Below are positions 38,088 through 38,513 of a stretch of 41,903 nt of DNA, piece after piece; position 1 is the first letter of the stretch; each line of letters opens with the position of its first letter. The translations under genes and the position numbers were made by a program. Origin of the DNA: Candidatus Tabaqchalia intestinavium (lineage in GTDB: Bacteria > Bacillota > Clostridia > Oscillospirales > CAJFTT01); NCBI GenBank assembly GCA_904420005.1, contig CAJFTT010000001.1:1-41903 (forward strand). Reading direction: 5' to 3'. Under the pieces are notes generated by a model, which searched no databases, was not told the origin of the DNA, and saw nothing but the letters and a program-made list of their open reading frames with translations.

Positions 38088-38157
38088 GCGTCTGCCTTTT
38101 TGGCGGTGCAGACGCCGCGTCCCTTTCTGCTCGACCGGGCGGAAAGGGACGTTTTTT
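38088..38157 (+). terminator. Tandem-hairpin terminator
   Basis: GCGTCTGC/GCAGACGC (38088-38115) is followed by CGTCCCTTTC/GAAAGGGACG (38118-38151) and six T (38152-38157). A strong intrinsic terminator for the regulator/MACS operon. Confidence 0.85.
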
Positions 38158-38325
38158 GCCCGGCGGGGCGTTTCGGCTTGCTTCGGCCGGCGGAGCGTTC
38201 CTTTCCCGCGATGGAGGCGGGCGGCGCGTTACCGGCGGCCGGGCCGTCTTCCCGGATGGGGTGGCTTTGCGCTGGCGGTGTTTGCAGCCCGCACCGGGAC
38301 GGTTGCGGGAAGAAACCCGGGCGTT

Positions 38326-38477
38326 TTGCGTCCCGGCCGCGCATGGGAAACACGGCGACGTCCGGCGTCAGCTTGTAGTCACAGCCAGTTGCGTCCCGGC
38401 CGCGCATGGAAAACACACTGTGATGTGCGCGACGGCATCGTCGCGTGCGTTGCGTCCCGGCCACGCATAGAAAATGC
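38326..38477 (-). CRISPR. Short orphan CRISPR-like array, three repeats
   Basis: Three 28-base repeats lie at 38326-38353, 38389-38416 and 38450-38477. Repeats one and two differ at one base; the third differs from the second at four (24/28). The + strand repeat reads TTGCGTCCCGGCCGCGC then ATGG-(A/G)-AAACAC. On the - strand it starts GTGTTTTCC, resembling type I-E repeats, and spacers of 35 and 33 bases fit that class (about 61-base period). The third repeat is next to an AT-rich stretch. The 33-base spacer contains a CGCGACG/CGTCGCG palindrome, so a non-CRISPR repeat family remains possible. No cas gene is in the window. Confidence 0.5.
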
Positions 38478-38482
38478 CCTGA

Positions 38483-38513
38483 TTGTAAACCTATAAAAAA
38501 TAATGGTTGACGA
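38483..38513 (+). promoter_or_regulatory. BirA-type biotin operator
   Basis: TTGTAAACC (38483-38491) and GGTTGACGA (38505-38513) form an imperfect inverted repeat. The left half is identical to the biotin operator half-site TTGTAAACC; the right matches its complement GGTTTACAA at seven of nine. The spacer is 13, a little short. It overlaps the -35 of the birA promoter. Confidence 0.65.

Follow-up and report, generated by a model that had tools for sequence, protein, structure and literature searches.

How did a small CRISPR-like array come to stand directly beside the birA promoter? The window, a stretch of 41,903 nucleotides from Candidatus Tabaqchalia intestinavium, had been described in a sequence-only reading as carrying three 28-base repeats, the first two identical at 27 of 28 positions, with spacers of 35 and 33 bases. 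This description was borne out at 38325-38477, where three copies of a repeat of 28-29 nt are separated by mutually unrelated inserts of 32-35 nt. On the forward strand, repeat copy 1 (TTTGCGTCCCGGCCGCGCATGGGAAACAC) occupies 38325-38353, insert 1 38354-38387, repeat copy 2 (GTTGCGTCCCGGCCGCGCATGGAAAACAC) 38388-38416, insert 2 38417-38448 and repeat copy 3 (GTTGCGTCCCGGCCACGCATAGAAAATGC), the most diverged of the three, 38449-38477. The start-to-start periods are 63 and then 61, and the insert sizes depend on the repeat call (34 and 32 nt with a 29-nt repeat, 35 and 33 nt with a 28-nt repeat). When the three copies are aligned, 23 of 33 columns are invariant, and a 24-nt core of the repeat occurs three times in the window at up to 3 mismatches, versus 0.00 occurrences expected from shuffles. 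Insert 2 is partly palindromic, as had been noticed, and carries the inverted repeat CGCGACG-GCAT-CGTCGCG. A crude gene caller counted the array as coding on account of a long antisense ORF, which we do not believe.

The repeat is unique to this locus. In the whole assembly its only matches at 3 mismatches or fewer are copies 1 and 2, and a profile search of the genome recovered the three copies and no other match below E=0.1; identical units with identical spacers dispersed through the genome, which the first description had named as a refutation, were not found. The weak matches of the repeat model included other mini-arrays of period 61 with different repeats. The array stretch was not found in relatives among the 147 genomes searched, the repeat has no match in IMG/VR, and its sole match in the GTDB species genomes is 23 nt of an Actinomadura, present there in a single copy. 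Neither insert has a second copy in the assembly at 3 mismatches or fewer. A comparison of the spacers with phage and plasmid databases, also proposed earlier, yielded short chance matches only and no convincing protospacer: insert 1 has no significant match in phages and no extended match in IMG/VR, and insert 2 has two 20-nt matches in IMG/VR, neither of which extends. A search of Rfam gave nothing approaching a curated threshold.

The window array is one of many of its kind. We scanned 1.82 Mb (~85% of the assembly bases), with all periods from 40 through 90, for paired 24-nt stretches that agree at 19 positions at least and have dissimilar flanks. There were 67 such pairs at period 61 and 16 at period 62, versus a mean of ~0.7 at control periods away from 61 that are not multiples of three; multiples of three gave 3-18 pairs, because coding periodicity inflates their counts. 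Chains of at least three units, sought in the first 1.06 Mb, numbered 12 at periods 61/62 and 0 at 15 control period pairs. At the same threshold, a small sample of relatives' DNA (~300 kb, canonical arrays cut out) contained no pair at period 61. The relative G217 shows a weaker period-61 signal at a looser threshold, which comes from a dispersed element of another kind with two hairpins (GAAGC/GCTTC and GCCC/GGGC, period 61-62; L150:3104-3275 and L156:246-330).

Altogether, 82 candidate loci with differing repeats (55 of them strong) were collected across 19 contigs; chance or coding repeats will account for part of these 82, above all at periods 60 and 63, and we put the true set at about 50-80 loci that differ in their repeats. 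Candidate loci lie outside genes in 57 of 82 cases, as compared with 20% of random windows. Most loci consist of two units and several have 3-10, the modal repeat extent being 28 bp and the modal insert 33 bp; 28 + 33 is the unit made by the type I-E Cas1-Cas2 of E. coli. Strong loci reach a density of 122 per Mb above 64% GC versus 5 per Mb at 56-60%, and the mini-arrays are concentrated on the GC-rich contigs C44, C36, C10 and C21 (L128, L174-L180, L120, L094, L104, L185-L187); contig C42 (160 kb) has none. Apparent empty/filled pairs (L123/L140 and two loci in L177) turned out to be duplicated array pieces. Unlike the others, the mini-array repeat GTGTTTTCCTCGCCCGCGGGCGAGCGCC (reverse strand) is shared by several loci, at L182:258-468, L185:8099, L203:10801, L087:181, L176:18302 and L089:8509; its first nine bases are those of the window repeat on the minus strand.

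The earlier remark that the period matches type I-E is strengthened by this 61-bp signature and by a type I-E cas operon on another contig. The claimed absence of cas genes holds for the window, where the ORFs neighbouring the array include none and the flank is the birA promoter, but not for the genome. The assembly, a 2.13-Mb draft that is 82% complete, is the sole genome available for its genus, and its contig C18 (5,768 bp) carries the operon fragment cas3-cse1-cse2-cas7'. Cse1 and Cse2 of type I-E score above their NCBIfam cut-offs, Cas3 passes those of cas3_core and cas3_HD, and the cas7 fragment, which comprises the first 114 codons, matches Cas7/Cse4 below the whole-protein cut-off. 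The cas7 frame (L046, contig C18, 5347-5768) stops at codon 114 (5691) and is followed by 77 AT-rich bases up to the contig end, which occur nowhere else in the assembly; this end is either a disrupted gene or an assembly join. No Cas1 turned up in this incomplete assembly.

The recognisable I-E array of the genome is a degenerate mosaic of ~12 units with several repeat sub-families on contig C3 (L086, 3429-4126), and one of its inserts matches part of contig C2 at 32/32 nt. In the order as a whole, Cse1 was matched in 16 of 394 genomes, a period-61 array accompanies 11 of 12 cas loci sampled from these Cse1-positive genomes, and the stem-forming repeat CTTTTCCCCGCRCAYGCGGGGGTGATCC is common to most of the relatives' I-E arrays. 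The window array is similar to these canonical arrays (L064-L075) in its 28-nt repeat, its unrelated inserts and its period (61 in the canonical arrays, 63 and 61 in the window). However, its repeat is locus-unique where that of the relatives is shared, it lacks the CCCCGC/GCGGGG stem, and neither a cas operon nor a leader lies next to it. In line with the missing stem, the fold z-scores of the window repeat are 0.74 and 0.98, versus -2.7 and -3.2 for I-E repeats.

The repeats of the different loci nevertheless have a collective likeness. An unsupervised ungapped alignment of the repeats of 49 loci gave the consensus GCCTTCCCCGCGCGCGCGGGGGAGGGCC, with 9.7 bits versus 5.8-6.3 for shuffles, a sequence near to the I-E repeat. 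When scored with a profile built from the relatives' I-E repeats, 22 of 48 repeats reached p<0.05, as compared with 3 of 48 inserts and 39 of 600 GC-rich intergenic controls. The window repeat alone gave p=0.07, a value compatible with I-E likeness that falls short of proof. The locus repeats are 75% GC and fold no better than shuffles, so that a hairpin requirement for the repeats is unsupported; such unremarkable folding fits the choice of a target better than the preservation of crRNA hairpins.

The sister loci also reveal where inserts come from. Of 116 inserts, 13 (~11%) match the own genome elsewhere at E<1e-7, versus 4-8 of 464 random segments (~1%) in each of five trials; a few of the 13 are duplicated pieces of arrays or paralogous coding sequence. 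The unambiguous matches are sharp-ended over 32-36 nt (32/32, 32/32, 34/34, 35/35, 32/33 in three cases, 35/36 and 31/33 nt), and these self-derived inserts occupy the whole space between repeats. Donor DNA elsewhere in the chromosome was identified in this way for about a dozen sister loci and for neither of the two window inserts, and it is the chromosome itself, rather than the phages or plasmids first envisaged, that the sister inserts match; 32 pooled inserts had no match in phages. In two mini-arrays, located on separate contigs, an insert is a piece of the genome's own cse1 (L106:9222-9254, from C18:4289-4321, and L178:1975-2009, from C18:3843-3877), and in another it is the beginning of a lepA-like gene. 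Such matches across contigs assign the contigs with arrays and the contig with cas genes to one organism. The dinucleotide AA, reminiscent of a PAM, lies directly outside one end of 6 of 12 protospacers versus 9% expected (p=2e-4), a post hoc observation in which the side is inconsistent with one array orientation.

A duplication of 28 bp around a donor piece of ~33 bp is what integration by type I-E Cas1-Cas2 leaves behind, and we consider it likely that the array beside birA is a neo-CRISPR locus, born from off-target spacer integration by this enzyme. The type I-E Cas1-Cas2 integrase would have put DNA pieces of ~33 bp into an intergenic site loosely resembling the I-E repeat; each insertion would have duplicated 28-29 bp of the target site, two insertions giving the three repeat copies. 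The same process would have operated at ~50 or more other places of the chromosome, often with the cell's own DNA and perhaps with other DNA too, and its products would decay afterwards. As a conjecture, the broken cas7, if real, would allow self-spacers to be tolerated. The proposal draws on the anatomy of the array, the 61-bp (28+33) signature, the self-derived inserts of sister loci, the I-E effector genes and the collective likeness of the repeats; from these we infer both that Cas1-Cas2 was the agent and that the window array shares the origin of its sister loci. As expected for a neo-CRISPR locus, the window array combines duplicated units of 28-29 bp and inserts of 32-35 bp with a repeat made of host sequence that is specific to the locus, being unique in the assembly. 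Speaking against the proposal are the failure to find Cas1, the lack of a source match for the window spacers, the p=0.07 at which the window repeat by itself resembles the I-E repeat, the post hoc character and inconsistent side of the AA signal, and the first period, which is 63 and not 61.

Off-target integration that gives rise to neo-CRISPR loci has been described for E. coli with overexpressed Cas1-Cas2 (Nivala, Shipman and Church 2018, Nat Microbiol 3:310, as related in PMC11788318 and PMC9456107). As far as these accounts go, the two cases would be alike in that spacers are integrated outside arrays and the host genome encodes type I-E components, and the loci studied here have 28-bp repeats, inserts of ~33 bp and, at several loci, inserts of self DNA. 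They differ in that the E. coli loci, as related there, were induced by overexpression, whereas ours occupy a natural genome in their tens, many of them aged and several with 3-10 units, and in that Cas1 was not recovered from the present genome. We had also entertained hypermutation of the repeats, because they are more diverged than the near-exact self-spacers, but dropped it, as a spread of ages can account for this difference.

It is possible, if somewhat short of probable, that this lineage's adaptation module is no longer specific for leader and repeat and keeps seeding new arrays across the chromosome from the cell's own DNA; some of the mini-arrays may still be transcribed. If this is true, the genome is a natural, genome-scale record of the birth, growth and decay of CRISPR arrays. 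How CRISPR arrays originate is an open question, and off-array integration is on record for cells that overexpress Cas1-Cas2. With tens of loci of all ages and with identifiable donors, a natural genome would make target and donor preference, growth and decay measurable, and mini-arrays without cas genes in assemblies may be integration footprints, not remnants. What could be new here is off-target integration of genome-wide extent in a naturally occurring genome, although a prior report could have been missed, the subscription literature being thinly covered.

A different history, which we regard as unlikely, is that ordinary I-E arrays were dispersed by rearrangement and that their repeats drifted until each was unique to its locus, the window array being one such remnant. 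The resemblance of the collective consensus to the I-E repeat would follow naturally, and the long degenerate array on C3 with its repeat sub-families, together with arrays on C36 and C44 whose repeats drift, points in the same direction. However, repeat copies are 80-100% alike within a locus and hardly alike between loci, so that the duplications acted on a sequence that was already non-canonical, whatever its origin; in addition, there are just two units at most loci, and the repeats, unlike decayed hairpins, fold no better than shuffles. The remnant of a normal array that the sequence-only reading had offered as one explanation is a poor fit, as the repeat differs from the I-E repeat of the order and dozens of loci have repeats of their own.

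A REP- or BIME-like element, or another dispersed structural element whose period is 61 bp, is very improbable. The window array does share with REP/BIME elements a short, GC-rich, intergenic repeat with palindromic parts, in this case in an insert, and the two-hairpin element of G217 demonstrates that a period of 61-62 can be of that kind in a relative. The REP-like option, raised earlier on account of the palindromic spacer, does not survive the finding that the unit is not dispersed through the genome and that the inserts of one array are mutually unrelated, those of sister loci being 32-36-bp copies of chromosomal DNA.

On the left of the array, a terminator-like hairpin with a T-run (38118-38157, forward strand) lies downstream of an AMP-ligase-like gene; on its right, the birA promoter region contains at 38483-38513 (forward strand) the pattern TTGTAAACC-N13-GGTTGACGA, with half-sites at 38483 and 38505, which we take from its likeness to the known BirA operator to be a BirA-type operator. 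Both lie outside the array, which stands between the probable terminator of the AMP-ligase-like gene and the operator and promoter of birA, ending ~5 bases before the left half-site. The proximity to birA noticed at first is therefore real, but nothing goes beyond adjacency, and the array is probably without function at birA. That its repeats are binding sites forming a regulatory element of birA can hardly be maintained, for all that the array stops 5 bases short of the operator, given that it was not found in the 147 related genomes searched and that sister loci of the same architecture occupy many unrelated intergenic regions.

Two further repeated sequences were met in the assembly. A dispersed intergenic element, TACCCTCGGTGGACAAGGGGCAACGCGCCCGGCGG, has many copies, often near contig ends (L191:13601-13636, L125:1915-1949, L175:7351-7385, L206:142-176 and others). 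A sequence of 36-38 nt, AAACTATACCCTATAAGGCTCCGTCCTTCTACTTTTT, marks the ends of some ten contigs (L146:50-87 and the first ~37 bases of C18, C16, C24, C26, C39, C41, C44 and C61, among others) and probably represents a repeat at which the assembly is interrupted.
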